47,550 nt of DNA from Desulfovibrio sp. (GTDB taxonomy: Bacteria; Desulfobacterota; Desulfovibrionia; Desulfovibrionales; Desulfovibrionaceae). Numbering within the stretch: position 1 is the first letter of the stretch; every line of letters starts with the position of its first letter. Below, one piece after another: positions 1,341 to 46,795 of this stretch. Both the position numbers and the translations under genes were made by a program. The notes beneath the pieces were generated by a model. That model was given only the letters and a program-made list of their open reading frames with translations. It ran no database searches and was not told the origin of the DNA. The stretch is taken from contig JAISKK010000101.1 in the NCBI GenBank assembly GCA_031260965.1, positions 1-47,550 on the forward strand, read 5' to 3'.

Positions 1341-1778
1341 TTATCTTTTTCCGGCGATAAATTTTATTTTTTTCCAGAGATTGCGGTCAGACATATGGCG
1401 CATGGTCATCAGGGAGAGAAGCAGTCCAGTCCCGATGTGCAGACTGCGCGAAACCACGCCGCTGCCCGCTGTGAGCAGAAAGAGCGCGGCGTAGAGCAAA
1501 TTTTCCTTGTCCCGGCTGGAGAGTTCCTGTTTTTTGTCGTCCTGTGCGGGTTTCGCGTCAAGCTGTTTTTCCAGAAGCGCGCAGGCCGCCAACAGGTCTT
1601 CGCCTGAAATGCGCCTGGGATCATAAAGGATTAAAAGGCTGCCCGTGCGCAGGTTTTCCGTAGTGTTCAAAATCCCGTCCCGGGCCGCGAGCAGATTTTT
1701 AATTCCGCCCATGACCTTCTCGTCCCGCAGGGCAGGGTGGCGCACCCGCACTCGTCCGTCAAAGAAACTGGCGATCAT
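1341..1778 (-). CDS. HMA-like protein with C-terminal membrane segments
   Basis: The 145-residue product has an N-terminal ferredoxin-like fold region resembling heavy-metal-associated domains (RVRVRHPALRDEKVMGGIKNLLAARDGI...TGSLLILYDP) but without the CxxC metal site. A linker and one or two hydrophobic C-terminal segments follow (NLLYAALFLLTAGSGVV, HIGTGLLLSLMTM). The ATG overlaps the stop of the P-type ATPase as ATGA, so the two are translationally coupled. It is probably an accessory subunit or a split-off domain of the pump. The metal is unknown. Confidence 0.7.
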   Translation of the reverse strand: MIASFFDGRVRVRHPALRDEKVMGGIKNLLAARDGILNTTENLRTGSLLILYDPRRISGEDLLAACALLEKQLDAKPAQDDKKQELSSRDKENLLYAALFLLTAGSGVVSRSLHIGTGLLLSLMTMRHMSDRNLWKKIKFIAGKR

Positions 1779-3964
1779 TTATCTCTCTCCTGGTTCAAGA
1801 GGGGCCGCAGGGTGTTGACAGCCACGGCGGTGGTGGTGGCGTTGTGCAGCAGGGCGGATATGCCGGGAGTCAGCAGGCCGAGCAGCCCGCCGGCCAGGAA
1901 AATGCTGTTCCAGAATAAAGAAGTGTAAAAGTTCCTGCGTATGCGGGTGATCGCGCGCCGGGACAGGATGCGGGCGACCGGAAGACCGGCCAGATTGCCG
2001 TCGGTGAGTACGATGTTCGCCACTTCCCTGGCCAGATCCGCGCCGCCGGACAAGGACACTCCCGCATCCGCCGCCGAAAGGGCCTGGGAGTCGTTGATGC
2101 CGTCCCCGACCATCAGCACCTTGAAACCGCGTTTTTTCAAATCCGCCACAAAAGCCGCCTTGTCCGCCGGCAAAAGCCTGGCCCGGTACTCGTCTATCCC
2201 CGCCTCGGCGGCAATGCTTGCCGCCGTCAGCTCCCCATCCCCGGTGAGCATGATCACGCGCCGGATTCCGTCCGCGCGCAGTGCGCGCACAATCTCGGCC
2301 GCTTCCGGACGCAGTGTGTCTTCCACGGACAAGATGCCGGCCAGACTGCCGCCGACGGCCAGATAAAGAATGGATCGCCCCTGAGCGGATTCTGCCGCCA
2401 CATGGCGCTCCTGCTCCGGGCTTATGGGGATGCCTTCGTCTTCCAGCACGAAATGGTCGCTGCCTATGAGCACGCGCTTGCCGCGCCATTGCGAGGCAAT
2501 GCCGTGGGCGACGACGTATTCCAGTTCCGCATGTTCTTCCTGGTGTTTCAGGCCTTCTTTCTCAGCAGCGCGCACGACGGCGCGCCCGACCGGGTGGGGG
2601 AAATGCTCCTCCAGACAGGCCGCCAGACGCAGTACCGTATTCCGCTCGTGTCCCGCAAAGGGGATGACTTCGGCCAGCGCCGGTTTGGCCTTGGTCAGGG
2701 TGCCGGTCTTGTCGAATACGGCCACATCGGCTTCAGCGAGGGCTTCCATGTATTTGCCGCCCTTGATGAGAATCCCGGCCTCCGCGCCTTCGCGCATGGC
2801 CGTGAAAATGGTCAGGGGAGTAGCCAGACGGATGGCGCAGGAATAATCCACAAGCAGCACGGCCCCGGCCTGGGCCGGGTTGCGTCCCGCCGCGTAGATC
2901 AATCCGCTGAGCAGGAAATTATAGGGCACGATGGCGTCGGCCATGCGTTCGTAACGGCTCTGAATGGCGGCTTTGGCGGCCTCGGAGACTTCTATGGCGC
3001 GGGCGATGTTGTGAATGCGCGTATTGCTCCCGGCGCGCACGGCGGTGATTAAAAGTTCGCCTTCCTCAAGCACGGTCCCTGCGTATACGCTGGCGCCCTT
3101 GCTGCGTCTGATGGGCAGAGGCTCGCCGGTCATGGATGCCTGGTTGACCAGTCCTTCCCCCTCGGCCACAATTCCGTCCACAGGCAGGGCCAACCCGGCG
3201 CGCGCCACCACCAGATGTCCGGGCCGCACCTCGGAGGCGGGGATGCGCACTTCCTGTTCCCCGTCGCGTATCCAGACATTGCTGATATTCAAGGCCAGAC
3301 TTTCCTCAAGACTTGCGCGCGACTTTGCCTCAATGCGATCCGCGAGAAATTCTCCCAGGGCAAAGAAAAAAGTGATCGAGGAGAGGGAGCGGAAGTCGCG
3401 GCGCAGGATACAGACGAGGAGAGCCGCGCCGTCCAGGGCGTTTAAATTGAGTTTGCCGCACAATACCGCCTTGGCTGCCCGCAAAATATAGGGCAGGGCA
3501 CGCAGAATGGCCAGAGCGCGGGTGAGCAGGCGCGGATAGAAAAAACTGCGAAATTTCGCTGGTATGGGGTTGGAAGCCAGATTTTGGGGCGTATTGTCCG
3601 GGGGCGTGTTTTTTCGCGCTTCTCCGCTTTTGACGGGAAGGGAAAAATTGCCGCGCAAAGCCTTGCGCGCCTCCTCGCCCGGCAGGGCGGCCAGAACGCG
3701 GGCACGCAGACGCGCGTCCGTATAGAGGAGAAGAATGCTGCCCGTGCTCGCGGATACGCTGACTTGCGCTCCGCTGAACAGATCGGAGGCAAGGGGGGCG
3801 ATCGCGGCGGCGGCGGGCCGCGCGGCCTGCCCCCCGGACAGGGGGCGCAGACGCATGCGTCCCGGCAGGTCATGCGCCAGCATATAGCGGCTCAGAACAC
3901 TGGATAAAGCAGGCCTTTCTCCTGTGTCAGGATTTTGCGGCCCAAGAGCGACGGGATCGGGCAC
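1775..3964 (-). CDS. P1B-like heavy-metal P-type ATPase
   Basis: The 729-residue cation pump has all the catalytic marks: TGEP in the actuator domain (~residue 278), DKTGTLT with the phosphorylated Asp (~416), an HP motif in FPHPVGRA (~456), TGDGE, and GDGIND (~618). A degenerate HMA-like domain precedes the membrane part. The membrane motif normally CPx reads SCA in DYSCAIRLATP (~375), so the transported ion cannot be assumed to be Cu or Zn. The start is GTG at 3964, six bases after the upstream small gene; an internal ATG at residue 28 is the alternative. It forms an operon with the small membrane protein before it and the HMA-like protein after it. Confidence 0.9.
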   Translation of the reverse strand: MPDPVALGPQNPDTGERPALSSVLSRYMLAHDLPGRMRLRPLSGGQAARPAAAAIAPLASDLFSGAQVSVSASTGSILLLYTDARLRARVLAALPGEEARKALRGNFSLPVKSGEARKNTPPDNTPQNLASNPIPAKFRSFFYPRLLTRALAILRALPYILRAAKAVLCGKLNLNALDGAALLVCILRRDFRSLSSITFFFALGEFLADRIEAKSRASLEESLALNISNVWIRDGEQEVRIPASEVRPGHLVVARAGLALPVDGIVAEGEGLVNQASMTGEPLPIRRSKGASVYAGTVLEEGELLITAVRAGSNTRIHNIARAIEVSEAAKAAIQSRYERMADAIVPYNFLLSGLIYAAGRNPAQAGAVLLVDYSCAIRLATPLTIFTAMREGAEAGILIKGGKYMEALAEADVAVFDKTGTLTKAKPALAEVIPFAGHERNTVLRLAACLEEHFPHPVGRAVVRAAEKEGLKHQEEHAELEYVVAHGIASQWRGKRVLIGSDHFVLEDEGIPISPEQERHVAAESAQGRSILYLAVGGSLAGILSVEDTLRPEAAEIVRALRADGIRRVIMLTGDGELTAASIAAEAGIDEYRARLLPADKAAFVADLKKRGFKVLMVGDGINDSQALSAADAGVSLSGGADLAREVANIVLTDGNLAGLPVARILSRRAITRIRRNFYTSLFWNSIFLAGGLLGLLTPGISALLHNATTTAVAVNTLRPLLNQERDK

Positions 3965-3970
3965 GGGTTT

Positions 3971-4222
3971 TTAAGCCTGCTGACCGCCGGATTTGCGTTT
4001 TCCCTGCTCATGGCGGGCTTCAGCGGCGATATCTTCGATATTTTCCTTGGCCGTGTCAACGAAGGCGGCGGCTTTGTCCTTCGCGTCCAGACCGTGGCTT
4101 AAAAGCGCGGCTGCGGTTTTTTTGATGTCAATGTCCCCGCGCGAGAGCACAACGACAGCCGCCGCGCCAACAACCGCTCCGAGTCCGGCGGCCAGACCGT
4201 ATTTCCAGATTTCATTTGCCAT
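3971..4222 (-). CDS. Small membrane-anchored protein upstream of the P-type ATPase
   Basis: The 83-residue protein has one N-terminal hydrophobic helix (YGLAAGLGAVVGAAAVVVL), then a charged amphipathic region rich in Ala, Asp and Lys. The ATG at 4222 is chosen because AAGGAG sits seven bases upstream; a longer frame from 4252 has no such site. Small one-helix proteins of this kind often accompany P-type ATPases. A regulatory or chaperone role is inferred from position only. It is the first gene of the pump operon, directly behind the 37-bp palindrome. Confidence 0.7.
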   Translation of the reverse strand: MANEIWKYGLAAGLGAVVGAAAVVVLSRGDIDIKKTAAALLSHGLDAKDKAAAFVDTAKENIEDIAAEARHEQGKRKSGGQQA

Positions 4223-4252
4223 AAGATGCTCCTTGGGATGTATTGTTGGCAC

Positions 4253-4306: not shown

Positions 4307-4335
4307 TTGACACAACGCTGACTTATGTCTAAAAA
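4307..4335 (+). promoter_or_regulatory. Candidate promoter of the esterase gene
   Basis: TTGACA (4307-4312), 17 bases, then TAAAAA (4330-4335). The start site would lie just before the GAGGAG ribosome binding site of the gene at 4355, so the leader would be very short. Confidence 0.35.
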
Positions 4336-4354
4336 CTGTTCGAGGAGAAGAAAG

Positions 4355-5389
4355 ATGGACAAAGGACTCAACCCCGCGCTGGTCCGCTGGCTGCGGGATT
4401 TTTATGTGAATGTGGAAAAAGCGCTCGCGGCGGGCTTTATAGCCACCCCGACCAACGCCCGCGAGTTCCTGGCCGGGCTGACCAGGCGCCATGTGGCTTT
4501 TATTCCCGATGTGGCCTCCGTGCTGGACGATTTGGCTCCCGGCGGCGCTTTCAGGCATCATCCCTCCAAGCCCAGGAAGCCGCGCTGGCCTGTGCCGGAC
4601 GCTCTGGCTCCCGGCGACGATTTTCAGGTCCCGCTGCGTATTTATCATCCCGATCCCGGGAAGGATCTTCCTGTCCTGCTCTATTTCCACGGCGGCGGGC
4701 ATATGTGCGGCAGCGTGACTGTTTATGATCCCATCTGCCGCAGGCTGGCCCTGGCTGCAAAGCACATCGTTGTGGCCGCCGATTACCGTCTGGCCCCGGA
4801 AAATCCCTGGCCGGCCGGGGTAAACGACGCTTTGAGCGTTGCGCGCTCCGTCTGGAGCGTGCTGGAGAGGCGGAGACTCAATTTTCAAAAAGAGCTGTCC
4901 ATAGCCGGGGATTCCGCCGGAGGGGCGCTCTGCGCGACCCTCAGCGACCTGGCCCGGTTCGAACCGGGGCTCACGATAAAACGTCAGGCCCTGATCTATC
5001 CGAGCCTTGATTATACCCTGAGTTTGCCGAGCGTTGAGGAAAACGCCAAAGGCTATCTGCTGGAGAAGGAAAAAATTGAATGGTACTTCAACAATTACCT
5101 GCCCGCAGGCACTGACCGGGAAAAAGTCTCGCCCCTGTTCGGGGAATTTACGGACGAGCTCCCGGAGACGCTGGTGCTTACTGCGGAATACTGCCCCCTG
5201 CGCGATGAGGGCTCGGCCTATCATAAAAAGCTGGTGGCCGCCGGGGTCAGGTCTGAACTGGTGAACTTCGCGGATATGATCCACACCTATATCTGCATGG
5301 AAGATATTGTGCCGGACGCCTGCAGAAAAACCTATGCTCTGCTCGACGTTTTTCTGAACGGGAAAAAGGGTGTTCTCACACATAAATAA
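4355..5389 (+). CDS. Alpha/beta hydrolase, hormone-sensitive-lipase type esterase
   Basis: The 344-residue family IV esterase/lipase hydrolyses short acyl esters. Diagnostic motifs are YFHGGGHMCG (oxyanion hole), DYRLAPENPWPAG, and the nucleophile motif GDSAGG. A C-terminal acid and His follow; the His is probably that of FADMIHTYI. There is no signal peptide, so it is probably cytoplasmic. The ATG at 4355 is preferred to the one at 4325 because GAGGAG precedes it at the right distance. It is transcribed alone, divergent from the metal pump; the physiological substrate is unknown. Confidence 0.88.
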   Translation: MDKGLNPALVRWLRDFYVNVEKALAAGFIATPTNAREFLAGLTRRHVAFIPDVASVLDDLAPGGAFRHHPSKPRKPRWPVPDALAPGDDFQVPLRIYHPDPGKDLPVLLYFHGGGHMCGSVTVYDPICRRLALAAKHIVVAADYRLAPENPWPAGVNDALSVARSVWSVLERRRLNFQKELSIAGDSAGGALCATLSDLARFEPGLTIKRQALIYPSLDYTLSLPSVEENAKGYLLEKEKIEWYFNNYLPAGTDREKVSPLFGEFTDELPETLVLTAEYCPLRDEGSAYHKKLVAAGVRSELVNFADMIHTYICMEDIVPDACRKTYALLDVFLNGKKGVLTHK

Positions 5390-5530: not shown

Positions 5531-6016
5531 GTGGATTTGCCTGAAGAAAATCAATCCTTGCCCCGGCGCAGATTTTTCATCAACGGGATAAAGGCTCTGG
5601 CCGCTCTATTCGGTTTGGGTCTGGGTATTCCGCTGGCAGGCTTTTTTATTTCGCCGGCTCTCAAGAAAGACAAACACGACTGGATTGAAATCGCGGATTC
5701 TTCTCTGCTCAAGGACGGGGAGCCGTCCAGAATAAATTACAGCTATGCCCGTAAAGACGGCTGGAAGACAGCGCAAACGCCCCGGACGGCCTTTGTCGTG
5801 AAGCAGGCCAGCGGCGAGTTCGCGGCCTTCTCCAACCGCTGCACCCACTTGGGCTGCGGAGTAAACTGGGATTCCGCCTTGAAGCAGTTCAAGTGTCCCT
5901 GCCACGGAGGCGTATTCGACGCGCAGGGCAGAGTGGTGGAAGGGCCTCCGCCGAAAGCTCTGACCCGTTTGGCGCTCAAGGTTGAGGCAAATAAAATTTT
6001 CGTCATGGAGGCCTGA
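5531..6016 (+). CDS. qcrA: Rieske iron-sulfur protein of a menaquinol-cytochrome c reductase
   Basis: The 161-residue protein has an RRRFF start, one N-terminal membrane helix (IKALAALFGLGLGIPLAGFFI) and a C-terminal Rieske domain. The 2Fe-2S ligands are C104/H106 in CTHLGCG and C122/H125 in CPCHGG; C109 and C124 form the usual disulfide. It takes electrons from quinol at the Qo site of cytochrome b and passes them to cytochrome c. The start is GTG at 5531 with AAGGA upstream. It is first in an operon with cytochrome b (two bases downstream), a subunit IV/cytochrome c fusion and then the NosZ-like enzyme, which suggests this complex feeds N2O reduction. Confidence 0.92.
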   Translation: MDLPEENQSLPRRRFFINGIKALAALFGLGLGIPLAGFFISPALKKDKHDWIEIADSSLLKDGEPSRINYSYARKDGWKTAQTPRTAFVVKQASGEFAAFSNRCTHLGCGVNWDSALKQFKCPCHGGVFDAQGRVVEGPPPKALTRLALKVEANKIFVMEA

Positions 6017-6018
6017 GC

Positions 6019-6687
6019 GTGGGCAGAATCTATCAGTTCCTTGACGAGCGCTTAAACCTCACGCCTCTGCTTCGGGACATAACGGATCATCCGGTTCCGG
6101 ATCACGCCAATGTCCTGAAAACGCGTTCCGCCTTCATTTACTGTTTCGGCGGCATCGCCTTTTTTATCATTCTGCTGCAGGCGCTGAGCGGCGTTTTTCT
6201 TATGCTCTATTACTCGCCCACGCCCGAGGACGCCCACGCCAGCGTCACTTACATCCAGAACGAAACGGCCTTTGGCGCCCTGTTGCAGGGCCTGCACAGG
6301 GTCGGGGCAAGCGCGGCCGTGATTATGGTTCTTCTGCACATGCTGCGCGTTTTTTTTACCGGATCCTACAAAAATCCGCGCGAACTGAACTGGGTGGTCG
6401 GGGTTTTCCTTTTGCTGATCGTCCTGGCCTTCGGCTTTACCGGATACCTGCTGCCCTGGGACCAGAAAGCCTATTGGGCGACGACGGTCGGTCTGAACAT
6501 GGTGGCAAACGTCCCTTTGATTGGCGACTTTCTGGCGAGCGCGCTCAGGGGAGGGAATGAGATGGGAACCCTCACCCTGCTGCGCTTCTTTGTTATCCAC
6601 GTCATGTTTCTCCCGGCCCTGCTGGCGATTTTTCTGGCCGCCCATTTCTTTATGTTGCGGCGTCAGGGAATTTCCCGTCCCCTGTAA
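6019..6687 (+). CDS. qcrB: Cytochrome b (b6-type N-terminal half) of the bc complex
   Basis: The 222-residue, four-helix diheme cytochrome b has heme ligands H93 and H107 in helix B (LHRVG...LLHMLR) and H194 and H209 in helix D (VIHVMF...AAHFFM). The 14/15 spacing is typical of b6. The Qo-site segment PWDQKAYW is present. The start is GTG at 6019, two bases after the Rieske stop. As in cytochrome b6f and Bacillus Qcr, the C-terminal helices are on a separate gene, which follows with a one-base overlap. Confidence 0.92.
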   Translation: MGRIYQFLDERLNLTPLLRDITDHPVPDHANVLKTRSAFIYCFGGIAFFIILLQALSGVFLMLYYSPTPEDAHASVTYIQNETAFGALLQGLHRVGASAAVIMVLLHMLRVFFTGSYKNPRELNWVVGVFLLLIVLAFGFTGYLLPWDQKAYWATTVGLNMVANVPLIGDFLASALRGGNEMGTLTLLRFFVIHVMFLPALLAIFLAAHFFMLRRQGISRPL

Positions 6688-7409
6688 TGAGTTCGAGCGA
6701 TAATATGAGCAGCCTTCCCTCACCTCCCGAGCCGGATAAAAGTCCCTGCCCCTTTTATCCAAACCACCTTTTCGTTGAGGGAGTGTGCGCTCTGGCGGTT
6801 TTCGCGGCTATCGTCATTGTCGCTTTGGTCTGGCAGGTTCCTTTGGAGGAAATAGCCGACCCCGGCGACGCCACCTATGTTCCCCGGCCCGACTGGTATT
6901 TTTTATTTTATTTCCAGCTCCTCAAATATTTTCAGGGTCCGCTGATCGTTGTCGGGACTTTTGTCCTGCCTGTGCTGGTCATGGCGGTCCTCATCCTTTT
7001 GCCCTTCTTCGACAAAGGCAAGGCGACGGGCATCAGGAAAAGGCCCCTGGCGGCGGCGGCCGGTCTGGCCGGCGTTGTTTCCATAGTCGCTCTGACCGCA
7101 GTCTCCGTTCTGGAAGACGAGTCCCACACGACAAAAATGGTTCTGCCGCCGGTCACAGAGGCGCAGATAGCCGCCGGGGAAAAAATTTTCGCCAGCTTCT
7201 GCCAGATTTGCCACAGCATAGACGGCAAGGGCGGGTTTATGGCTATGGCGCCCGATTTGACGGAGATTGCTTCGCGCGTGAGCAGAGCGCGAATTGAACA
7301 GATTATTATCGATCCCCAGGTTGTAAGCCCGACCACCATTATGTCTGTAATTCCCCTCAGCGAGGAAGAAAGGCATAATGTATCCGCATATCTTTCGCGC
7401 AAAAAATAA
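6687..7409 (+). CDS. qcrC: Subunit IV / cytochrome c fusion of the bc complex
   Basis: The 240-residue protein joins the C-terminal part of cytochrome b to a c-type cytochrome. The first part has three membrane helices and the Qo motif PDWYFLFYFQLLKYF (PEWY variant). The tail carries one heme site, CQICH (C172, C175, H176), and a later Met in VVSPTTIMSVIP that could be the sixth ligand. The arrangement resembles Bacillus QcrC. The ATG shares one base with the qcrB stop. The c domain should lie on the periplasmic face and could pass electrons to the NosZ-like protein encoded next. Confidence 0.92.
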   Translation: MSSSDNMSSLPSPPEPDKSPCPFYPNHLFVEGVCALAVFAAIVIVALVWQVPLEEIADPGDATYVPRPDWYFLFYFQLLKYFQGPLIVVGTFVLPVLVMAVLILLPFFDKGKATGIRKRPLAAAAGLAGVVSIVALTAVSVLEDESHTTKMVLPPVTEAQIAAGEKIFASFCQICHSIDGKGGFMAMAPDLTEIASRVSRARIEQIIIDPQVVSPTTIMSVIPLSEEERHNVSAYLSRKK

Positions 7410-7427
7410 GAAAGGAGGAAGAAGAGA

Positions 7428-7604
7428 ATGAGGCTGGTGAACAGCCGGGTGTATGGGAATGTGAAGGGTCAGAATTCGGGGTTTTTACAAAGGCCGGAAC
7501 AAGGTTCCGGAATAAATTTACGGCGTCAGGGTATGAGAATGTTGTTTCGGAAAAATCTTAAATCCGGTTGTAGTGGAATTAAGGAGAATGAGAATGAAAG
7601 ATAA
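7428..7604 (+). CDS. Small ORF overlapping the start of the NosZ-like gene
   Basis: A 58-codon frame opens at an ATG nine bases after a strong AAGGAGG and stops inside the NosZ-like gene, overlapping its start by 11 bases in another frame. The peptide is basic (MRLVNSRVYG...), with no signal peptide or membrane helix and no family I recognise. The strong ribosome binding site and overlapping stop suggest translational coupling to the reductase. It could equally be a chance frame in a leader. Confidence 0.35.
   Translation: MRLVNSRVYGNVKGQNSGFLQRPEQGSGINLRRQGMRMLFRKNLKSGCSGIKENENER
7494..7510 (+). other. Perfect hairpin before the NosZ-like gene
   Basis: CCGGAAC and GTTCCGG flank a three-base loop, followed by AATAAATTTA rather than a T run. 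Within the operon it may be an mRNA processing or stabilising element that sets reductase expression apart from the upstream bc genes. Confidence 0.5.
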
Positions 7605-9174
7605 AAAGATCCTGCGGACGGCCATCTCTTTGCTGGCAGCGCTTTTTGTGATGGCTGCGGGTCTGGAGGCTCAGGCCGCCGACCCGCCGGGTGGAGTCAA
7701 ACAGTTCGGCCCCAAGGACGATTACGTCATTTTTGCTTCCGGCGGCATTTCCGGAACTTTGCAGGTTATCGGCCTGCCCAGTTTGCAGACCATCAAACTG
7801 ATCCCGGTAGGCGTGGACACCCATGAACCGGTTTTTTCCGGTTCCAACCAGCCGGGCACCAACGGAACCCCTGACGGCAAGTATGTCTTTATAAACGACA
7901 AGGGCGACTCCGCCGTCGGGATTGTGGACATCGCCACCCAGGAATTGATCCGCAAGATCAATATCCCCGCTCCCTTCGGACCGCACCACATCGCCCTTAC
8001 CCCGGACGGGAAAACCCTGTTCGCCACAGGTGAGCTGTCCGGCAAAATGGCCAAAATCGACATTGCCAGCGGCAAAGTCGAGGTCATCGACGTTTCCGAC
8101 GGTCAGGAGTCCGCCCCGGACTATCTGCTGGTCACGCATGACGGCAAGTATTGTCTTGCTACCGACTATTATCGTTCCGGCGTCCATGTGATCGAAGTGG
8201 ACAGCTTCAAACGGACCAAGTTCATTCCCGCCGGCAAAAATCCGCACGGCATAGACCTGACCATGGACGGAAAACTGGCTTTTGTCGCCGGCAAACTCTC
8301 CGGGAATATAGTGGTCATCGACGTCGGCAAACTGGAAATAGTCAAGGAAATAGATCTGACGCCCGCCGTCCCCGGTTTCAACAAGAGCCCGGCCCCCGGT
8401 CCTCTGCACACTGTTTTTACCAATGACGGGAAATGGGCCTATACGACCCTCTTTGTCGATAACGCCGTGGCCAAAATTGATCTCGGCAAGATGGAAATGG
8501 TGAAAAAGATCCCCGTCCATTACCGGCCGGGTCACCTGCAAATCACGCCGGACAGCAAATACATCACCGTCTGGAACAAATACTCCACAGGGCTTTTCGC
8601 GGGTTCCATCTCCAACCAGGACCCGACCAATGTTGAGTTGATCGACCTGGCCAAGGATGAAGTGATCGGCAGGGCCCCGACCGTGCCGGAACCGCACAAC
8701 GCCAAGATCATCAAGGCTGACGCCGTTCTGGGCTATATGCACGCCAATCTGCCGAAGGAAGGACATCCTTCCATTTATGCCCCGCATAAAGACCCCAATG
8801 TGGTGGCCAGACTGGTTCCCGAAGACAAGGGCGCGCCCGGCATTACCAAAACCAGCGACGGCGTGGTGGAAATTCGCATTCAGGAATTCAGTTACGGCTT
8901 CAAGCCTGAGACTATTAATGTGAAGAAAGGCGACAAGGTGCGCTTTATTCTGACCAATATCGACAAGGCTACGGGACTGACCAATGACCCCGCGCCTGTG
9001 CACGGCTTCATCATCAACGAATATGGTCTGCAGACCAACTGGGGCGTTCCCCAGGGCAAGTCGGTCATTTTTGAATTTTCCGCCGACAACGTCGGAAAAT
9101 TCGCCATGTTCTGCTCTTACTTCTGCGGACCGCTGCATCTGGAAATGCGCGGCTGGTTTGTTGTTGAAGCATAA
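7594..9174 (+). CDS. nosZ: Divergent nitrous oxide reductase (beta-propeller plus CuA cupredoxin)
   Basis: The 526-residue precursor has a Sec signal peptide cut after AQA (~28). A seven-bladed propeller with YVTN/lactonase-like repeats follows (~35-400), then a cupredoxin domain (~425-526). Seven His sit where CuZ ligands are expected: H77, H131-H132, H218, H272, H314 and H368, with spacings close to canonical NosZ except for one shorter gap. The cupredoxin has a CuA site: H470, C507, C511, H515 and M518 in CSYFCGPLHLEM. The predicted reaction is N2O to N2 in the periplasm. It is about 100 residues shorter than usual NosZ and lacks a Tat signal. It best fits the lactonase-type N2O reductase group recently reported, from memory. 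The ATG at 7594 is favoured by GGAG seven bases upstream; 7573 and 7588 are poorer. Confidence 0.8.
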   Translation: MKDKKILRTAISLLAALFVMAAGLEAQAADPPGGVKQFGPKDDYVIFASGGISGTLQVIGLPSLQTIKLIPVGVDTHEPVFSGSNQPGTNGTPDGKYVFINDKGDSAVGIVDIATQELIRKINIPAPFGPHHIALTPDGKTLFATGELSGKMAKIDIASGKVEVIDVSDGQESAPDYLLVTHDGKYCLATDYYRSGVHVIEVDSFKRTKFIPAGKNPHGIDLTMDGKLAFVAGKLSGNIVVIDVGKLEIVKEIDLTPAVPGFNKSPAPGPLHTVFTNDGKWAYTTLFVDNAVAKIDLGKMEMVKKIPVHYRPGHLQITPDSKYITVWNKYSTGLFAGSISNQDPTNVELIDLAKDEVIGRAPTVPEPHNAKIIKADAVLGYMHANLPKEGHPSIYAPHKDPNVVARLVPEDKGAPGITKTSDGVVEIRIQEFSYGFKPETINVKKGDKVRFILTNIDKATGLTNDPAPVHGFIINEYGLQTNWGVPQGKSVIFEFSADNVGKFAMFCSYFCGPLHLEMRGWFVVEA

Positions 9175-10324
9175 TTCCGCTTCAAGGGATCAAGCGGAGG
9201 GAGCGCGTAGCGCTCCCTCCCGGGGGCTCTTCACCCCGCCGGCGCCCAAATGGGCGAACTGGCTCTATCGTCTTGGCGGAGTGACCTTTCTTTTTTGCCT
9301 GCTGCAGGTTCTGTCGGGCATTTATCTGGCTTTCTTTTTCCAGCCCACACCGGCGGACGCCTGGACGAGCCTCGAATTTATTGAAAAAAGCGTCCCTCTG
9401 GGAAAATTCTCCCACTCCCTCCACCGCTGGGGCGCCTTTGCCGTAATGTCTTTTCTGATCCTGCACCTTTTGCGCTATATCTGGCTTGGCGCTTACCGCA
9501 CGGCTGCAAAGGCGGTCTGGATCAGCGGCATTTTTCTGCTGCTGACCCTTGCGGCTTTTATTGTGAGCGGCTATTTGCTGCCCTGGGACTTCAGGGCCTA
9601 CTGGACGGTCAAGACCGTCGGCAACTGGCTCGACCATTTGCCTTTTTTTGCGGACACCCTGCGCTGGCTCCTGTTTACGGATACGCCTGGCGGCGTTGTG
9701 CCGGTGAACAGATGGTTTGCCCTGCATACGCTTGTGCTGCCTCTTTTGACGGCTGTAATTGTCGCCGTTCATTTTTGGAACGCGCGGGCGCGCGGAATCT
9801 TCGGGCCGGCGCAAAGAGCGCGGGCCATCCTCACGCTTGCGGGCGCGACGCTGCTGCTTGCGGGACTCGCGGCTTTCGGGACGCAGGAGCACAATATAGC
9901 CGATCCCATCACCACCTCTTCTGTGCCCCAGCCGGACTGGCTTTATATGATGTTCTTCCAGGTGACGCGCTATTTCCAGGATGGTCTGGAAATGGTCGGC
10001 GTCTTCTGGATCCCCGCAGGCATCGTGCTTGGCCTCTTCCTGCTTCTGTTTGTCGATCTTCGCAAAGACCGGCTCAAATGGACGATCTTCTCTTTGAGCG
10101 CGGCCGCTGTTCTGCTTTTGTGCATCGTCACTTATCACACTTGCAGCACCAGTCCCATATGGAGCTGCGCGAGTTGCCACAAAAAGAGTTTCGGCCAGGC
10201 CTTTGCCACCGCCCCGAGGAATCTGGGCGCTTTTTCAAACCGCTATGACAATAAATGGTTGGCTCTGCATTACCGTTATCCGCAATATTTCTGGATGATG
10301 GACGCTGAAGTGCCTGGCTGGTAA
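9164..10324 (+). CDS. Full-length cytochrome b with a C-terminal heme-c tail
   Basis: The product has about eight membrane helices. Heme b ligands (numbered from TTG 9164) are H87/H101 (LHRWGAF...ILHLLRY) and H188/H203 (ALHTLVL...AVHFW). It has PWDFRAYW, a PDWLYMMFFQ variant of PEWY, and a single heme-c site CASCH near C335 at the periplasmic end. It thus fuses cytochrome b, subunit IV and a cytochrome c. Its place right after nosZ suggests a dedicated quinol-to-reductase electron path. The start is uncertain: the frame is open from 8984 inside nosZ, but no ATG with a ribosome binding site lies near the expected N-terminus. TTG 9158-9164 and GTG 9281 are the options, and a strong hairpin (9196-9220) lies in between. 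Confidence 0.8.
   Translation: MKHNSASRDQAEGARSAPSRGLFTPPAPKWANWLYRLGGVTFLFCLLQVLSGIYLAFFFQPTPADAWTSLEFIEKSVPLGKFSHSLHRWGAFAVMSFLILHLLRYIWLGAYRTAAKAVWISGIFLLLTLAAFIVSGYLLPWDFRAYWTVKTVGNWLDHLPFFADTLRWLLFTDTPGGVVPVNRWFALHTLVLPLLTAVIVAVHFWNARARGIFGPAQRARAILTLAGATLLLAGLAAFGTQEHNIADPITTSSVPQPDWLYMMFFQVTRYFQDGLEMVGVFWIPAGIVLGLFLLLFVDLRKDRLKWTIFSLSAAAVLLLCIVTYHTCSTSPIWSCASCHKKSFGQAFATAPRNLGAFSNRYDNKWLALHYRYPQYFWMMDAEVPGW
9196..9220 (+). other. 11-bp perfect hairpin after the NosZ-like gene
   Basis: GGAGGGAGCGC and GCGCTCCCTCC flank the three-base loop GTA, 22 bases after the nosZ stop. No T run follows, so it is more likely an mRNA-stabilising or attenuating element than a full terminator. It overlaps the ambiguous start region of the downstream cytochrome b gene. 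Confidence 0.65.
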
Positions 10325-10371
10325 GTTATTTTACGCAGCAAAAACAAACCTCACGCGTAGGGAGCTTGAAA

Positions 10372-10809
10372 ATGAGTTGGTCAGGAAGAAAATGCCTTTT
10401 CGCCCTTTTGGGTCTTATCTGCTTGTCTTTCGCCAATTTTCCGGCCGGACCCGCTTTTTCGGCGTCGAATGCCGGGAACGTCCCGGAACTGGCAGTGGAA
10501 AAGCAATCTCCGGAATATATCTGGGTCTTGAGAACTCCGGGCAAAGCCGGTGTGGTTCAGGTCATCCTGACCCTGCGCGACGCGGCGGGCAAGACAGTGA
10601 AAGGACGTCGGGTGACGGGCGAGGTATTGATGCCGACAATGCCCATGCCCGGCTATCCCCTGGAACTGGAATTTCAGGAAGCGGAAGATGGAAAATATGC
10701 CGCGCTGGTCCAGTACGGGCATGGCGGTTACTGGCAGATCAAGGCCAGGTTCAAAGATGACAAGGACCAACTGTTCCAGCAGGTATTTGATCTTGACATA
10801 AAAGACTAA
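10372..10809 (+). CDS. Exported YtkA/FixH-like protein
   Basis: The 145-residue protein has a signal peptide (MSWSGRKCLFALLGLICLS...) and a beta-sandwich domain of the YtkA/FixH type: GEVLMPTMPMPGYPLELEF followed by DGKYAALVQYGHGGYWQIKARF. The Met-rich MPTMPMPG segment and Gly-His are typical of this group, whose members often sit in copper-enzyme or cytochrome oxidase assembly operons. A periplasmic copper delivery or assembly role for the reductase is inference from position. ATG 10372 is chosen because GGGAG lies upstream at a good distance; the TTG at 10366 is less likely. Confidence 0.75.
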   Translation: MSWSGRKCLFALLGLICLSFANFPAGPAFSASNAGNVPELAVEKQSPEYIWVLRTPGKAGVVQVILTLRDAAGKTVKGRRVTGEVLMPTMPMPGYPLELEFQEAEDGKYAALVQYGHGGYWQIKARFKDDKDQLFQQVFDLDIKD

Positions 10810-10828
10810 CTGAATAAGGCTGAACACA

Positions 10829-12037
10829 ATGCGGCAGATCTTTTATCTGGTCAGACAAAACCTGAAACGCAAGCCTTTCCGCGCCTGGATGATGATCGGC
10901 GGAATTGTTCTGGCTTGCGCTACGCTTTTTGTGGCGGCCATACTCTCCAGAGGGATTCAATCCACCCTGCAAACCGCCCGGGAACGCCTTGGGGCCGACA
11001 TTGTGGTCGTGCCGGCCGATGCCCGGGAAGAAGCGCTGTCGGCGTTGATTTCAGGCAGTCCCACCAGCTTTTTTATGCCCTCATCCCTGGAAGAAAAAGT
11101 GCGTACGGCGCCGGGAGTGCAGCAGACCTGTTCACAAGTTTATCTGCGCAGTCTGGACGCGGCCTGCTGCGTGGCCCAGGTGGCCCTGGTCGGTTATGAC
11201 CCTGTACGGGATTTTACCATCAATCCCTGGGTCTTGCAAAAAACCAGCGAACCTTTGCAAGCTAACCAGCTCGTTGTCGGGGCCAAGGTCATTTCGGCTT
11301 TGGTCGGCACCCCCGCGAAGGCTATCGGGCAACGCCTGATGTTTATGGGTAAACCTTTCAGCGTAGCCACGATTTTGGAGCCCACGGGACTGGGAACGGA
11401 TTATACGGTATTTCTGCACATGGATATGGCCTATCAAATGACGCAGGGTTCGCCGCTTTATCCCGTGCCTGTAAAAAAAGACCAGATCTCGACCATTCTG
11501 ATCAAAGTTGCCGACGGGATGGCTCCGGAGACCGTAGCGGCAAATATTGAAAAAAATATTCCGGAGCTCAAAGCTTTGACGTCCAACCAGCTTACCCGCT
11601 CTTTCAGCCGGCAGTTGCAGGATCTGGTTGACGTCCTCTTTGTGGCCGGGGGACTTTTCAGCCTGCTGGCCCTTGTTCTGGTTGGCAACCTCTTTGCCTT
11701 GTCGGTGCGGCAGCGCATGCGGGAGCTTGGCTTGTTCCGGGCCATGGGGGCAAGGCGGAGTGTGATTTTTCAGTTAATTATCCTTGAAGCGCTTTGCATC
11801 GCCGGAGCGGGCGGATTGCTCGGCGTGCTGATCGGCTTTTCCGTGATCTGGTTCGGCAAAGACATTATTACGGAGATGATCGGCAACATGTATATGTGGC
11901 CGGGCAACCCCTATTTCTTGAAAGCCGTTTTGCTGACCATGGCTGCGGCTCTTGTGACGGGAATACTGGGCGGTCTTTATCCGGCCTGCCGCATCAGCAG
12001 TCTGGAACCTTATGAAGCCATCAGAAAAGGAGAATGA
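10829..12037 (+). CDS. FtsX/MacB-type ABC permease (first of two)
   Basis: The 402-residue protein has one N-terminal helix (WMMIGGIVLACATLFVAAILS), a periplasmic MacB_PCD-like domain, and three C-terminal FtsX helices beginning near residue 265, ending with LEPYEAIRKGE, the usual tail of this family. The periplasmic part contains the Cys cluster DAACCVAQV. Such permeases pair with LolD/MacB-type ATPases as mechanotransmitters instead of carrying solutes through a channel. The ATPase gene follows six bases later and a second permease lies 2.3 kb downstream. In this operon it may take the place of NosY in copper-site maturation; that is inference. Confidence 0.88.
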   Translation: MRQIFYLVRQNLKRKPFRAWMMIGGIVLACATLFVAAILSRGIQSTLQTARERLGADIVVVPADAREEALSALISGSPTSFFMPSSLEEKVRTAPGVQQTCSQVYLRSLDAACCVAQVALVGYDPVRDFTINPWVLQKTSEPLQANQLVVGAKVISALVGTPAKAIGQRLMFMGKPFSVATILEPTGLGTDYTVFLHMDMAYQMTQGSPLYPVPVKKDQISTILIKVADGMAPETVAANIEKNIPELKALTSNQLTRSFSRQLQDLVDVLFVAGGLFSLLALVLVGNLFALSVRQRMRELGLFRAMGARRSVIFQLIILEALCIAGAGGLLGVLIGFSVIWFGKDIITEMIGNMYMWPGNPYFLKAVLLTMAAALVTGILGGLYPACRISSLEPYEAIRKGE

Positions 12038-12043
12038 GCCGCG

Positions 12044-12757
12044 ATGATACAAGTGGAAGCTCTCAGCAAAGATTATAAAAGCGTGAGAGTGTTGCAGGGG
12101 ATAAACTGGGCAATTGAGGACGGCGCATTTGTCATTGTCACCGGACGTTCCGGCGGAGGAAAAACAACCCTGCTCAGCATTGTGGGCGGTTTGACCAGAC
12201 CGGACGCAGGCCGGGTGCTTATTGACGATACCGATATCTGGCAACTGTCCGAGCCTGATCTGGCGGCCCTGCGCAATGAAAAGCTCGGTTTTGTTTTTCA
12301 GTTCCCCAGCCTGATTCCGACCCTGAGTGTACTGGATAACGTCCTTTTGCCCATTGCCTTCGGAGACAAAAGCCCCAACCTTGAAGACCTGAAATTCGCT
12401 ACTTCGCTTCTGGAAATGGTCGGGATAAGCGGTAAAGACGGTCAGTATCCCGCCCAGCTTTCCGGAGGGCAACAACGCCGGGCGGCAATAGCCAGGGCGA
12501 TGATCAAGCGTCCTGCGATTATTCTGGCTGACGAGCCGACGGGTGATCTGGACGAAAAAACCGAAGCGGAAATAATGGACCTTTTTCAGAGCATCAACGG
12601 GCAGGGGACAACAATCGTCATGGTGACTCACGCCCTGGATTACGCCAAAATCGGTAAAACCTACACCTTGAAAGACAGTCACTTATTCCCGTACGAAGAC
12701 AGTGAAGCGTCTCCCCGGGACCTGACGCGGGGAGGGGAATTGCGACATGACGCTTAA
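12044..12757 (+). CDS. LolD/MacB-type ABC ATPase
   Basis: The 237-residue nucleotide-binding subunit has Walker [10 protein letters not shown], a Q-loop in [11 protein letters not shown], the signature [15 protein letters not shown], and Walker [14 protein letters not shown] followed by the H-loop VTHALD. It is closest in pattern to LolD, MacB and FtsE. It sits between FtsX-type permease genes and overlaps the next gene by 11 bases. It should power the two permeases as a heterodimeric transporter. Context suggests work on the periplasmic reductase or its metal centre, as NosF does in standard nos clusters. Confidence 0.92.
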
Positions 12758-13148
12758 AAAAAAGATCGCCTTGTCGGTAAGCGCCTTGCTCCTCATTGGA
12801 ATCGGGATTACGGCGGGACAATATTACTTTTATAATATAAAACTGCCGGATATTTCTCCCCGTCAGGTGGTCGAGCAGTATTTCGCGGCCGTGAAAGAGG
12901 GCGATTATAAAAAAGCCTATGCTTTCGTAAGTCTTAAATACTATCACGAATCTTACAACCAGTTTATCGACAGGGTTGTGATGTACTCGCCCGAGATGCG
13001 CCTGGAAGTGACAAAAGAAAGCATGGAAGATGATAAAGCCGTTGTTGACGCGAGTGTTGTCGTCCCTTTGCAGTTCGGTTCCTATACGGCAGATTCACGT
13101 ATGGATCTGGTCCGCGATAAACGAGAATGGAAGATCATCCACCCCTAA
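12747..13148 (+). CDS. Membrane-anchored NTF2-like (DUF4878-type) protein
   Basis: The 133-residue protein starts with KKK and one hydrophobic helix (IALSVSALLLIGIGITAG), so it is anchored and faces the periplasm. The rest (RQVVEQYFAAVKEGDYKKAYAFVS ... REWKIIHP) matches the small cone-shaped NTF2-like fold common in exported proteins of unknown function. There are no catalytic residues or metal ligands to point to. The ATG lies within the end of the ATPase gene. It is a probable accessory part of the ABC module. Confidence 0.65.
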   Translation: MTLKKKIALSVSALLLIGIGITAGQYYFYNIKLPDISPRQVVEQYFAAVKEGDYKKAYAFVSLKYYHESYNQFIDRVVMYSPEMRLEVTKESMEDDKAVVDASVVVPLQFGSYTADSRMDLVRDKREWKIIHP

Positions 13149-13167
13149 CCCGCGTGATGTTAATAAA

Positions 13168-14334
13168 ATGAGCAGAATATTCAGTTTGGCCCTGCTTTTT
13201 GTTTTTTGCGGATTTGCCCTTGTGCCGGCTGGGGCCGGGGAAAACACCTGGGATAAAATCGCCCTGGACAAAACGCATATTGTTTCTTTGATCAGCGATC
13301 CCGCGCGTCCTGCCACCCTCTATGCCGTCACCCCTTCGGGTCTGCAAAAGAGCCTGGACAGCGGGGCGAACTGGAATGTCATCGGCCAAAGTCTGCCCCT
13401 GGATATGCCTGCAAGTTGTGTGGTGGTGAACCCTCTGAACAGCAAGGAATTGTATGTGGGTTATGACGGTCAGGGCATCTTCAAAAGTTCCGACTCCGGC
13501 GGCACCTGGCGATCCGTCAACGCTGGACTGCCCAGCCTGAATGTCCGCTGCATTGTCATAAGCCCCAAAGACACCAATCTGATATACGCAGGAATAATGG
13601 GAGGCGTGGCGATCAGCACCAGCGCCGGCAAATCCTGGCACATGGCCTCGGGGTTCAAGCGCGCGGTCAACGTCAACGCCATTGTCATCGATCCGAAGAA
13701 CCCCCAGTATCTGTATGCGGGCACGGGCGGAGCCGGAGTTTTTAAAAGCGGCAACGGCGGGGTTTCCTGGACGGACGTCAATCAGGGTTTAAGCAGCCTG
13801 AGTATTCTCGCCCTGCATATTGATCCGGAAAATCCCGACATCGTGCTGGCCGGGGCCTATCACCCGGCAACGCCGAGCGATTTTTACGTCGGCGTCGCCA
13901 ACGGGGGCGTCTTTCAGACTCTGGACGGAGGCAGGACCTGGAAAGAAACCAGCCTGCTCACGGTAACGATTTTTTCTTTTGCCTCGGATCCTCTTTACCC
14001 GGACCTTGTCTACACCGGGGCCTGGGGCGGGGCTTACCGCAGCCTGGACAAGGGCACGACCTGGGTGGACCTGAATACCGGTCTGGACAATGCCTTTATG
14101 CACACGATGTATCTTAAGCCCACAAAGCCGCCCCTGCTTCTCGCCGGCACGACTTTCGGTCTTTTGTCTTACACGGACAAAGATCTGGAAAAATTGCAGC
14201 CCCAGAAGGGCGGCGAGACCCCCTTTGTATGGTACGCGGCCGCAGGCGTGGGCGCAGCGTTGCTGATAGTATCGTTTTGTTTTTGGCGGAAAAGAAGAAG
14301 AGCCGCGCGGAACCCGGAACGCTCCGTCTGGTAA
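13168..14334 (+). CDS. Asp-box (BNR) beta-propeller protein with C-terminal membrane anchor
   Basis: The 388-residue protein has a signal peptide and at least six Asp-box type repeats, such as KSLDSGANW, KSSDSGGTW, KSGNGGVSW, QTLDGGRTW and RSLDKGTTW, spaced about 45-60 residues apart as in sialidase/YCF48/sortilin propellers. A C-terminal helix (AAAGVGAALLIVSFCFW) and RKRRR tail anchor it with the propeller outside. It sits between the ATPase/NTF2 genes and a second permease, the place a NosD-like periplasmic assembly factor would occupy. NosD, however, is a right-handed beta-helix, so this would be an analogue, not a homologue. ATG 13168 begins a good signal peptide; the longer frame from 13030 overlaps the previous gene. 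Confidence 0.75.
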   Translation: MSRIFSLALLFVFCGFALVPAGAGENTWDKIALDKTHIVSLISDPARPATLYAVTPSGLQKSLDSGANWNVIGQSLPLDMPASCVVVNPLNSKELYVGYDGQGIFKSSDSGGTWRSVNAGLPSLNVRCIVISPKDTNLIYAGIMGGVAISTSAGKSWHMASGFKRAVNVNAIVIDPKNPQYLYAGTGGAGVFKSGNGGVSWTDVNQGLSSLSILALHIDPENPDIVLAGAYHPATPSDFYVGVANGGVFQTLDGGRTWKETSLLTVTIFSFASDPLYPDLVYTGAWGGAYRSLDKGTTWVDLNTGLDNAFMHTMYLKPTKPPLLLAGTTFGLLSYTDKDLEKLQPQKGGETPFVWYAAAGVGAALLIVSFCFWRKRRRAARNPERSVW

Positions 14335-14359
14335 AAATATTTAAAAAAAGACTGTCCTC

Positions 14360-15499
14360 ATGTGGAATTTGGCGTTGAAAAATTGCAAAGGTCACAAGGC
14401 ATACAATGCCATTATTGTGTTCGCCGTTGCCCTGGCTGTCGCCATGTCTTTTGTCGCCGCTTTTATGAGTGGGGGCATCCAGAAGGAACTTGAAAACACG
14501 CGTCGTTTGCAGGAACCGGATCTGGCCCTTGTTCCCGGCGGGACAAAAGAAAAGGGGAATATTTATCTGACCAAGGGACCGCCGGCCCTGGGCGCGGTCG
14601 CCGCCGACGCGGCTTCGGAAATACGGGGTTTTGCCGGAATTGAGGCTGTGACCAGCCAAAAATACCTGGGGAAGTTTTCCATAGGGAATGTTCAGGCGAC
14701 GCTTATCAGTTATGAGCCGGAAACGGACTTTGTCGTTGCACCCTGGCTGGAAAAGAAAAACTTGAAGGAAATTCAGGGGCGCTCCGACAAAATTGTGCTG
14801 GGAGCGCGGGTAGCGGTGGGAAAGCTTCCCGGCGACAGCCTGCAATTGAACGGCAAGGATTTTCTCATTTCCGGCCGTCTGCGGGAAAGCGGCGCTTTTC
14901 TGGATAGCGCGGTCTTTTTCCCTGTGGCCGGAACCCGGATTGAGGATCCGTCCTGGATTTTGCTCCGGCTGACGCAAGGGGTATTTCTGGATGCCATGGT
15001 CAACAGGATTGAGGCGAATATTCCCCGGGTCGAAGTAATTACCCGTCCGGAAATGCTTAAAACCATAAATGACCAGTTGCACGGCCTTGTGCGGGGCGGC
15101 AGCTTCGGCACGGCGGCTATACTGGTGGCAGTCGGCGCGCTGTTGATTACAGTCGCCATATTTGCCTTGATGATCCATGAACGCAGGCGGGAATTCGGCT
15201 TGCTGAAGGCCATGGGGGCCGGAAACAGCTTCGTCTTCAAGCTGATCGTCAAGGAATCCGTCCTGCTGGGCGGACTGGGTGGAATAATTGGCCTTGGGCT
15301 TGCGGTCTTCTGGCTGTTGCTGAGCGGCGCCGGGCTGGCCTTTGGCGAATTATCCGCCCTGTCTTTTACCGGCTTCATTCTGTTTCGGATGTTCATGACC
15401 CTGGCCCGGACAGTCGGAGTTTGCATGCTGGCGGCTCTTTTCCCTGCGCTGCTTGCGGCCAGGCTGGAGCCCTATGCGGCTATTCGCGGCGGCGAATAG
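14360..15499 (+). CDS. FtsX/MacB-type ABC permease (second of two)
   Basis: The 379-residue permease has the same plan as the one at 10829: N-terminal helix (AYNAIIVFAVALAVAMSFVAAFMSG), periplasmic domain, three C-terminal helices and the tail LEPYAAIRGGE. It differs enough in sequence that the two probably form a heterodimer with the single ATPase. It is the last gene of the plus-strand operon; 18 bases separate it from the convergent polyferredoxin gene. I see no clear terminator in that gap. Confidence 0.87.
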   Translation: MWNLALKNCKGHKAYNAIIVFAVALAVAMSFVAAFMSGGIQKELENTRRLQEPDLALVPGGTKEKGNIYLTKGPPALGAVAADAASEIRGFAGIEAVTSQKYLGKFSIGNVQATLISYEPETDFVVAPWLEKKNLKEIQGRSDKIVLGARVAVGKLPGDSLQLNGKDFLISGRLRESGAFLDSAVFFPVAGTRIEDPSWILLRLTQGVFLDAMVNRIEANIPRVEVITRPEMLKTINDQLHGLVRGGSFGTAAILVAVGALLITVAIFALMIHERRREFGLLKAMGAGNSFVFKLIVKESVLLGGLGGIIGLGLAVFWLLLSGAGLAFGELSALSFTGFILFRMFMTLARTVGVCMLAALFPALLAARLEPYAAIRGGE

Positions 15500-15517: not shown

Positions 15518-17029
15518 TCAGATAGGCCGGTGCTCCTCATTGCCCTGCACGGCGATGGCCGCCAGGGGCCGGACCGGGCAGTAGTATTCGCAGGCCCCGC
15601 AGCCTGTGCAACGTTCGGCGTCAACGGCCACCGTCCTTGAGCCGTCCGCTTTCTCCAGCAGATTTATCGCCCCCGGAGGACAGTTGCGGCCGCAGGCGAA
15701 GCAGCGTCCCTCACCTTTACTGTTTATGCACAGGCTCGGGTCAAGGACGGCCCTGCCAATCTGGGTGGCGCTTTTTTTGGCCGCGCTGATCGGCAAAATC
15801 GCCCCGGTCGGGCAGACGGCGGAACAGGTTACACAGTTCACGCGGCAAAATCCCCTCTCAAAAGAAAGCGTGGGCTGCAACAGCCCCTCCCCCTGATCAA
15901 AGGAGCTTAAAACCTGATTCGGGCAGGCGGAAACACAGAGTTGGCAGCCGCTGCACTTTTCCCGGAAGGAGGCTAGTCCGCGCGAGCCGGGGGGCGTGAT
16001 AGGCGTGTTCCTTGGCGGACGCTCTTTGCGGATCAGGGCCGCAATCTCGTTTTCATTGATCTCCTTGACCGCGTGCGCCGGAGATGCGGCCAGACCAAAG
16101 GCGGCGACAAGCAGACCGCGCCGGGCCAGATTTGGTCCCCCGGCTGCCCCGGTTTTATTCACGAGAGCGGCCGCCTGGGCTGTCCTTTCCGGAATGGCGG
16201 CTTGAGCCGCTTTGGGCGCAAAGGACCTTGGTCCGTAGTCAATGGCCCCGCGCCGGCATTTATCCAGGCAGTTAAAGCAGACCACACAACGGCCGGCGTC
16301 AATCTCGGATTTTTTCGAGTCTATGCAGGAGGCCTTGCATTCCCGCACGCACAAGCCGCAGTGAATGCATTTTGCGGCCTCAAGGCGGGGCCGGATCAGG
16401 GCAAAACGGTTTAAATAGCCGAGCATCGTCCCCACCGGACAGATAGTATTGCACCAGGTCCGTCCGCCTTTAAAGGCCAGATAAGCAATCAGGGCCAGGG
16501 TCAATACTGCTGCAGCCAGGGCGGATACTCCTTTCTGCCAGATGGGCGTGGGTCCTACGGCATAGCTCCCGGCACTTTCGCTAGCCAGATTGAGCAGATT
16601 GGACCCGGCCTGCCAGAGCGGGGCAAAAAGGTCTGTCGCGATACGACCGAAGGAGCTGTAAGGATCCAGCAAGGCGAAAAGCCAGGGTATGCCGAGGCAA
16701 AAAGCCAGGACAAAAAGGACCATAGCTCCAACACGCAACTGACCACGCGCCGGGCTGAAGCTATAGCGCCCCTTTTTGCCCAGGCGGGCGATCAGATCCT
16801 GCAAAATACCCAAGGGACAGAGGATGGAGCAGTAAACCCGACCCAGAAGCAGGGTGAGAAGAGCCAGGGCCAGAACTATAAGCAAACTGCCGGCGATAAG
16901 GGCCGGGACAAGCTGAATTTTGGCGAGGAAGGCGAGTTTTTGGGGCCAGAAGCCGCTTACGTCCACAAAAAGCAGGCAGAAAGCGGCGAAGCAGAGCGCG
17001 GCCAGACTGATGCGCAGTTTTCGGATCAC
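15518..17029 (-). CDS. NapH/NosR-like membrane polyferredoxin
   Basis: The 503-residue protein has an N-terminal membrane part (about five helices) carrying two CxxxCPxG motifs (CSILCPLG, CNTICPVG) typical of NapH, NosR and RdxA. Several 4Fe-4S motifs follow: CIHCGLCVREC, CVVCFNCLDKC, CSGCQLCVSACP, a CVTCSAVCP region and CTGCGACEYYCP. A Tat-like LARRGLLVAAFG stretch lies in the middle. It should move electrons between the quinone pool and a periplasmic or cytoplasmic partner. It is co-transcribed with the aldo/keto reductase (GTG start three bases after its stop, GAGGG upstream). It lies tail to tail with the N2O reductase operon, so a NosR-like role is possible but not shown. Confidence 0.85.
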   Translation of the reverse strand: MIRKLRISLAALCFAAFCLLFVDVSGFWPQKLAFLAKIQLVPALIAGSLLIVLALALLTLLLGRVYCSILCPLGILQDLIARLGKKGRYSFSPARGQLRVGAMVLFVLAFCLGIPWLFALLDPYSSFGRIATDLFAPLWQAGSNLLNLASESAGSYAVGPTPIWQKGVSALAAAVLTLALIAYLAFKGGRTWCNTICPVGTMLGYLNRFALIRPRLEAAKCIHCGLCVRECKASCIDSKKSEIDAGRCVVCFNCLDKCRRGAIDYGPRSFAPKAAQAAIPERTAQAAALVNKTGAAGGPNLARRGLLVAAFGLAASPAHAVKEINENEIAALIRKERPPRNTPITPPGSRGLASFREKCSGCQLCVSACPNQVLSSFDQGEGLLQPTLSFERGFCRVNCVTCSAVCPTGAILPISAAKKSATQIGRAVLDPSLCINSKGEGRCFACGRNCPPGAINLLEKADGSRTVAVDAERCTGCGACEYYCPVRPLAAIAVQGNEEHRPI

Positions 17030-44616: not shown

Positions 44617-44657
44617 TAAAGGGCTGAATTTATCTTTGAGGAGAGATGATGCACGAT
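44617..44657 (+). repeat. 41-bp direct repeat, copy 2 (native tssC start)
   Basis: Identical to 43702-43742. Here the GAGGAGAG and ATGATG lead into the full tssC frame, so this is probably the original location. Confidence 0.93.
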
Positions 44658-46106: not shown

Positions 46107-46134
46107 TTTTATTTTATCGCTGAAATAGGTCTCT

Positions 46135-46731: not shown

Positions 46732-46748
46732 GGGGGTGATTGGTGATT

Positions 46749-46795
46749 GTTGCCTGCAACGCTTATAGAGCGTTCTGCGGACGGACGCGGGCAAC
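46749..46795. terminator. Imperfect hairpin between convergent genes
   Basis: GTTGCC (46749-46754) can pair with GGCAAC (46790-46795), and inside it AACGC (46758-46762) with GCGTT (46770-46774). It lies in the 114-base gap between the protein at 46135 and clpV. No U run is present. Confidence 0.35.

Follow-up and report, generated by a model that had tools for sequence, protein, structure and literature searches.

A clade III lactonase-type NosZ within a conserved eleven-gene cassette of a Desulfovibrio genome

Locus and cassette organization

The window (the whole 47,550-nucleotide stretch analysed, contig JAISKK010000101.1 of a Desulfovibrio sp.) contains a cassette of 11 genes on one strand, arranged in the order given in Table 1 and spanning positions 5531–15499. 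Its fourth gene, L-nosZ, is open throughout from the ATG at 7594 to the stop at 9174, and an AAGGAG sequence lies about 8 bases upstream of the start codon. The cassette was compared by tblastn of the window genes against 17 L-NosZ loci. Termite-gut Desulfovibrionaceae and Sporomusa acidovorans share its gene order wherever the contig is long enough.

The genes next to L-nosZ encode electron-transfer proteins whose cofactor ligands are conserved. In the Rieske protein, which is 55–69% identical at the equivalent place in related loci, the CxH...CxxW...CxCH signature (C104, H106, C109, C122, C124, H125) is invariant in 10 sequences. The cytochrome b6-type subunit (71–79% identity across loci) has invariant histidines at positions 93, 107, 194 and 209, while C172, C175, H176 and M219 are invariant in the fusion of subunit IV with cytochrome c. 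The second cytochrome b-c, encoded directly after L-nosZ, is 50–66% identical at the equivalent place in related loci and is represented by two ORFs in Sporomusa.

The remaining genes encode exported or membrane-associated proteins and an ABC ATPase (64–74% identity across loci). Residues M89, M92, M94 and H119 of the YtkA-like protein are invariant in 9 sequences; tblastn did not detect this gene in the L013 and Sporomusa L015 loci. The first permease (FtsX1) carries a Cys113-Cys114 pair in the region of the MacB-like periplasmic domain, invariant in 11 sequences. These Met/His residues and the Cys-Cys pair are plausible Cu(I) sites. The BNR propeller and the second permease (FtsX2) are 58–69% and 43–63% identical across loci, respectively. 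The NTF2-like protein is kept in group A (the window-like L-NosZ) and in loci L096 and L098 (E values of 1e-7 to 1e-10), and by eye a similar ORF adjoins L-NosZ in L099 and L100. Besides cytochrome b, its gene is the only accessory found beside both L-NosZ groups, which makes it a candidate core factor.

The flanking genes of the window (P-type ATPase, esterase, polyferredoxin, aldo-keto reductase and serS) do not accompany the cassette in related loci, and this sets its limits at 5531 and 15499. Two neighbors were considered as cassette genes and rejected, the esterase (4325–5389) and the NapH/NosR-like polyferredoxin (15518–17029), since related loci contain no homologue of either one close to L-nosZ. 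The G+C content is 53–55% across the cassette versus 58–60% on both sides. Rfam and tRNA searches of the window gave no hits, and promoter and terminator scans gave results no better than shuffled sequences.

Several other features were observed around these genes. The polyferredoxin, of the NapH/NosR/NapG type, lies on the minus strand directly after the cassette. A heavy-metal-type P-type ATPase is encoded at 1775–3964 on the minus strand, and a YtxH-like small gene (3971–4252) lies upstream of it. Positions 268–314 form a perfect (AG)23.5 dinucleotide run, which is unusual in a bacterial genome, and the right end (44646–47550) carries genes that resemble type VI secretion genes (TssC-like and ClpV-like, judged from the translations). 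In Sporomusa acidovorans (L015:16756–19606), the cassette is followed directly by genes for another MacB-type ATPase and a further two FtsX permeases.

Table 1. Positions in the window of the cassette genes and of the ligand sites within L-nosZ.
Feature	Positions	Strand	Basis or remark
Rieske [2Fe-2S] protein, first cassette gene, proposed quinol-side electron entry	5531..6016	+	PF00355 7e-14
Cytochrome b6-type subunit	6019..6687	+	NF002990 cytochrome b6 311 bits, below cut-off 325
Subunit IV fused to mono-haem cytochrome c (CQICH), proposed CuA donor	6687..7409	+	PF00032, PF00034
L-NosZ, clade III lactonase-type nitrous-oxide reductase	7594..9174	+	526 aa, NF052460
CuZ site, blade 1: His77-Glu78 (D-T-H77-E78-P); clade I/II His-His	7822..7827	+	alignment
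CuZ site, blade 2: His131-His132 (P-H131-H132-I); clade I His-Gly	7984..7989	+	alignment
CuA loop CSYFCGPLHLEM (C507, C511, H515, M518)	9112..9147	+	with His470, full CuA set
Second cytochrome b, C-terminal CxxCH (CASCH), start codon not fixed	9200..10324	+	PF00033 1.6e-33
Exported YtkA/FixH-like protein, proposed copper chaperone	10366..10809	+	PF13115 6.4e-7, PF05751 5.8e-7
MacB/FtsX-type ABC permease 1 (FtsX1)	10829..12037	+	PF02687, PF12704
ABC ATPase, MacB/LolD type	12044..12757	+	TIGR02211 190 bits, below cut-off
Small exported NTF2-like protein	12747..13148	+	PF05223 4e-4, just under gathering score
Exported BNR/Sortilin-type propeller, C-terminal membrane anchor	13168..14334	+	PF15902 3.8e-15
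MacB/FtsX-type ABC permease 2 (FtsX2), last cassette gene	14360..15499	+	PF02687, PF12704

Family assignment and predicted fold

L-NosZ matches the NCBIfam equivalog NF052460 ("clade III lactonase-type nitrous-oxide reductase") with 865.1 bits (E = 1e-260; cut-off 700 bits) over positions 1–479 of the 480 in the profile, and chance is ruled out by a score of this size. The models of clade II (TIGR04246, 229.5 bits) and clade I NosZ (TIGR04244, 176.7 bits) both stay below their cut-offs of 625, so that only the lactonase-type model is passed. A clade II identity is ruled out by the profile score and the tree. The N-terminus, MKDKKILRTAISLLAALFVMAAGLEAQA, was judged by eye to be a Sec-type signal peptide; it has no twin arginine, unlike the signal of the TAT-dependent clade I (clade II is Sec-dependent). 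The host genome (2.46 Mb, 95.7% complete) contains this single match to NF052460.

On the evidence of its sequence, the product of L-nosZ is a further member of the L-NosZ family, already described and modelled; three articles (PMC13033781, PMC13122619 and PMC13274427) credit clade III NosZ to He et al. 2025 (Nature 646:152). It resembles that family over the whole length of the model, being short, Sec-exported and composed of a propeller and a CuA domain, and differs in its host setting, a termite-gut Desulfovibrionaceae, which is new. With 526 residues, it falls short of clade I NosZ (median open frame 643 aa) by about 100. The first-pass annotation had proposed a short, Sec-exported, lactonase-type N2O reductase, and both the profile search and the predicted structure bear this out.

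In Pfam, the Lactonase and YNCE propeller models score above their gathering thresholds, the nos_propeller repeat reaches 32.5 bits (cut-off 30), and the cupredoxin domain is also matched. A lactonase function was considered and rejected: the 6-phosphogluconolactonase equivalog PRK11028 gives 22.1 bits against a cut-off of 370. Since the lactonase equivalog models fail, the Pfam name Lactonase denotes only the propeller. L-NosZ shares the propeller repeat and the Lactonase match with 6-phosphogluconolactonases and YVTN propellers, whereas these lack the histidine set and the cupredoxin.

An AlphaFold2 model of L-NosZ was built with 23 sequences from related loci (pLDDT 78.4, pTM 0.74). The propeller is strongly predicted, the cupredoxin (pLDDT about 55–65) and the linkers weakly. 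Together with Pfam and the nearest folds, the model defines an N-terminal seven-bladed propeller and a C-terminal CuA cupredoxin. The full-length rmsd is about 15–17 Å, and the placing of the domains relative to each other in the model is unreliable. All 50 Foldseek matches listed are NosZ proteins (best E 1.6e-33). In VIA-align, NosZ structures superimpose with Z scores of about 42 and 2.3–2.5 Å over about 325 propeller residues, in line with the two-domain fold shared with clades I and II. An S-layer YVTN propeller reaches a nearly equal Z score of 41.6, and the phosphogluconolactonases follow at 34–37. Because the S-layer propeller scores so close to NosZ, the fold alone is no proof of catalysis, and more weight falls on the ligand set and on membership in the sequence family.

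CuZ and CuA ligands

The ligand positions were compared in pairwise and multiple alignments of 18 L-NosZ, 69 clade I and one clade II sequence, with the ligand residues of P. stutzeri NosZ taken from the mutant titles of the listed PDB series. Seven propeller histidines of L-NosZ (H77, H131, H132, H218, H272, H314 and H368) are invariant in 18/18 sequences. Five of them, H131, H218, H272, H314 and H368, align one to one with the P. stutzeri ligands H178, H326, H382, H433 and H494, and H77 aligns with H129, one of the blade-1 pair. The position of the other member of that pair, H130, is occupied by Glu78 in L-NosZ, while the residue after H178, Gly179 in clade I, is His132. In all 69 clade I sequences and the clade II sequence, blade 1 bears a histidine pair (D-x-H-H-P) and blade 2 one histidine; in all 18 L-NosZ the pair is in blade 2 and the single histidine in blade 1, the total of seven being kept. 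The CuZ coordination is not identical to that of clade I, because His130 of clade I corresponds to a glutamate. DSSP analysis of the model places the CuZ histidines at the opening of the first strand in blades 1, 2, 4, 5 and 6 and just before it in blade 7; in blade 3, an invariant Asp176 occupies the corresponding position. By homology, the seven histidines probably share one copper cluster.

The cupredoxin has the CuA pattern His...Cys-x3-Cys-x3-His-x2-Met, with H470 aligned to the P. stutzeri CuA ligand H583. The CuA ligands, like the seven propeller histidines, are invariant throughout group A. Tyr509 in the CuA loop replaces a tryptophan found in 68/69 clade I sequences. The first-pass annotation had named the same CuA set and the Tyr-for-Trp exchange, both of which hold, and had described seven propeller histidines in the order and near-spacing of the NosZ CuZ ligands, a description that holds in part. 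All seven are present and six align with ligands as described above; the order differs, with the pair in blade 2 and H132 beside an aligned ligand.

A divergent group of L-NosZ from other families of the phylum (L002–L007, also L095–L100) is 43–46% identical and scores 690–778 bits with NF052460, most members passing its cut-off. In these proteins Met occupies the position of CuA ligand His470, and the CuA loop carries His or Thr, so that either their CuA site may be altered or they may not be N2O reductases. Around L-NosZ in L095, L099 and L100 lie genes for several cytochromes c, two propeller proteins and an ABC-2 transporter of the GldF type, a context unlike that of the window cassette.

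Proposed function, distribution and setting

Family membership, fold, complete ligand counts and the conserved 11-gene cassette are established for L-NosZ. The gene very probably encodes a clade III N2O reductase, and the cassette would be dedicated to anaerobic N2O respiration with this reductase as its terminal enzyme. In the proposed pathway, the Rieske/cytochrome b/c complex, whose genes directly precede L-nosZ, would oxidise menaquinol, and cytochrome c would reduce the binuclear CuA of the cupredoxin domain. NosZ works as a head-to-tail dimer; CuA of one subunit would reduce the tetranuclear CuZ in the propeller of the other, where N2O would be converted to N2 and water.

In classical systems, NosL and NosDFY handle copper delivery and CuZ assembly. 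Neither NosD nor NosL was found genome-wide in the host and 7 group A genomes, although both families were detected in controls. Copper delivery and CuZ assembly may instead be carried out by the YtkA-like protein, the MacB-type ABC transporter and their NTF2-like and BNR-propeller partners. We infer this maturation role from the co-occurrence of the genes and from a few invariant Met, His and Cys residues. COX1-type proteins, which include NorB and the heme-copper oxidases, were likewise not found in the same 8 group A genomes. The bc-type complex thus has no heme-copper oxidase to feed, which leaves L-NosZ as the sole partner of this kind in evidence, and the host has no NorB of its own to produce N2O. 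NrfA is present in the host genome, which would be that of a non-denitrifying N2O consumer (NrfA present, NorB absent).

L-NosZ was found in 7/15 genomes of the host genus, in 0/20 genomes from other genera of the family (same draw) and in 0/24 elsewhere in the order, and it is 79% identical to a Bacillota protein. This patchy distribution and the high identity to a Bacillota protein point to horizontal transfer of the cassette. The tree places Sporomusa inside group A without resolving its position there, and transfer may have gone in either direction. No L-NosZ was found beyond Sporomusa itself in a wider sample of its phylum (398 genomes) and order (28). The PLSDB matches listed comprise only clade I/II NosZ at <60% identity and no plasmid-borne L-NosZ.

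The patchiness within the genus, the lack of a NorB-type source in the host and the origin of N2O from other organisms in the gut would also fit an enzyme that detoxifies or scavenges N2O released by neighbors without supporting growth. We consider this unlikely, as a quinol-oxidising complex that is encoded together with the enzyme and dedicated to it points to respiration. Less probable still is a copper enzyme of the NosZ fold whose propeller copper site would oxidise or reduce another substrate, with the cupredoxin as electron carrier. The scaffold can evidently switch substrate: thiocyanate dehydrogenase, which oxidises thiocyanate at a trinuclear copper site, shares the seven-bladed propeller and copper-binding histidines and is a close fold (Z scores of 32–34), and the CuZ ligand pattern of L-NosZ is unlike that of clades I and II. 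The NosZ matches score clearly higher, however, and the thiocyanate dehydrogenase alignments cover only the propeller, up to residue 377, and do not reach the CuA domain. In addition, NF052460 and the founding paper that it cites assign N2O reduction to the family, and the cassette provides the quinol-to-cytochrome c chain that a reductase needs. The Lactonase and YNCE matches would suit a structural or sensor propeller with a degenerate cupredoxin and no redox catalysis, a reading made very improbable by the invariance of all copper ligands in group A, the failure of the lactonase equivalogs and the conserved electron-transfer cassette.

Respiratory N2O reduction by L-NosZ would have its setting in the termite gut. 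The accessions of the relatives (JAISxx, JAITxx) fall in the range JAIRJQ–JAITXW, given for termite-gut MAGs in PMC11257099, and the sample code Nt197 of L013 denotes Neocapritermes taracua according to PMC7024585. Six of these termite-gut relatives are placed in the genus of the host genome, and the closest relatives of L-NosZ come from termite guts. N2O is a strong greenhouse gas. With the sequences that we take to be those of the clade I and clade II nosZ primers, the clade II forward primer has a site in L-nosZ at 8395–8411 with one mismatch, and neither the two clade I primers nor the clade II reverse primer finds a site in the gene when up to three mismatches are allowed. For lack of matching primer sites, PCR surveys of clades I and II would miss L-nosZ. 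A termite-gut nosZ survey by PCR is described in PMC12993464 as counting clades I and II only, and the same article describes termite guts as N2O sources of very variable strength, with some species as net sinks.

The cassette may amount to a self-sufficient module for N2O respiration that moves between Desulfobacterota and Bacillota and in which a rearranged CuZ (Glu78 for His130, His132 for Gly179) is built without NosD and NosL by the co-transferred system of YtkA-like protein, MacB-type ABC transporter (Cys-Cys), NTF2-like protein and BNR propeller; we hold this extended proposal to be possible, if somewhat short of an even chance. The interest of the locus lies in its termite-gut setting, in the self-contained cassette without NosD or NosL and in the transposed histidine pair. 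Because the cassette is compact and brings its own electron supply, perhaps along with assembly factors, one can test directly which genes suffice to build CuZ without NosDFYL.
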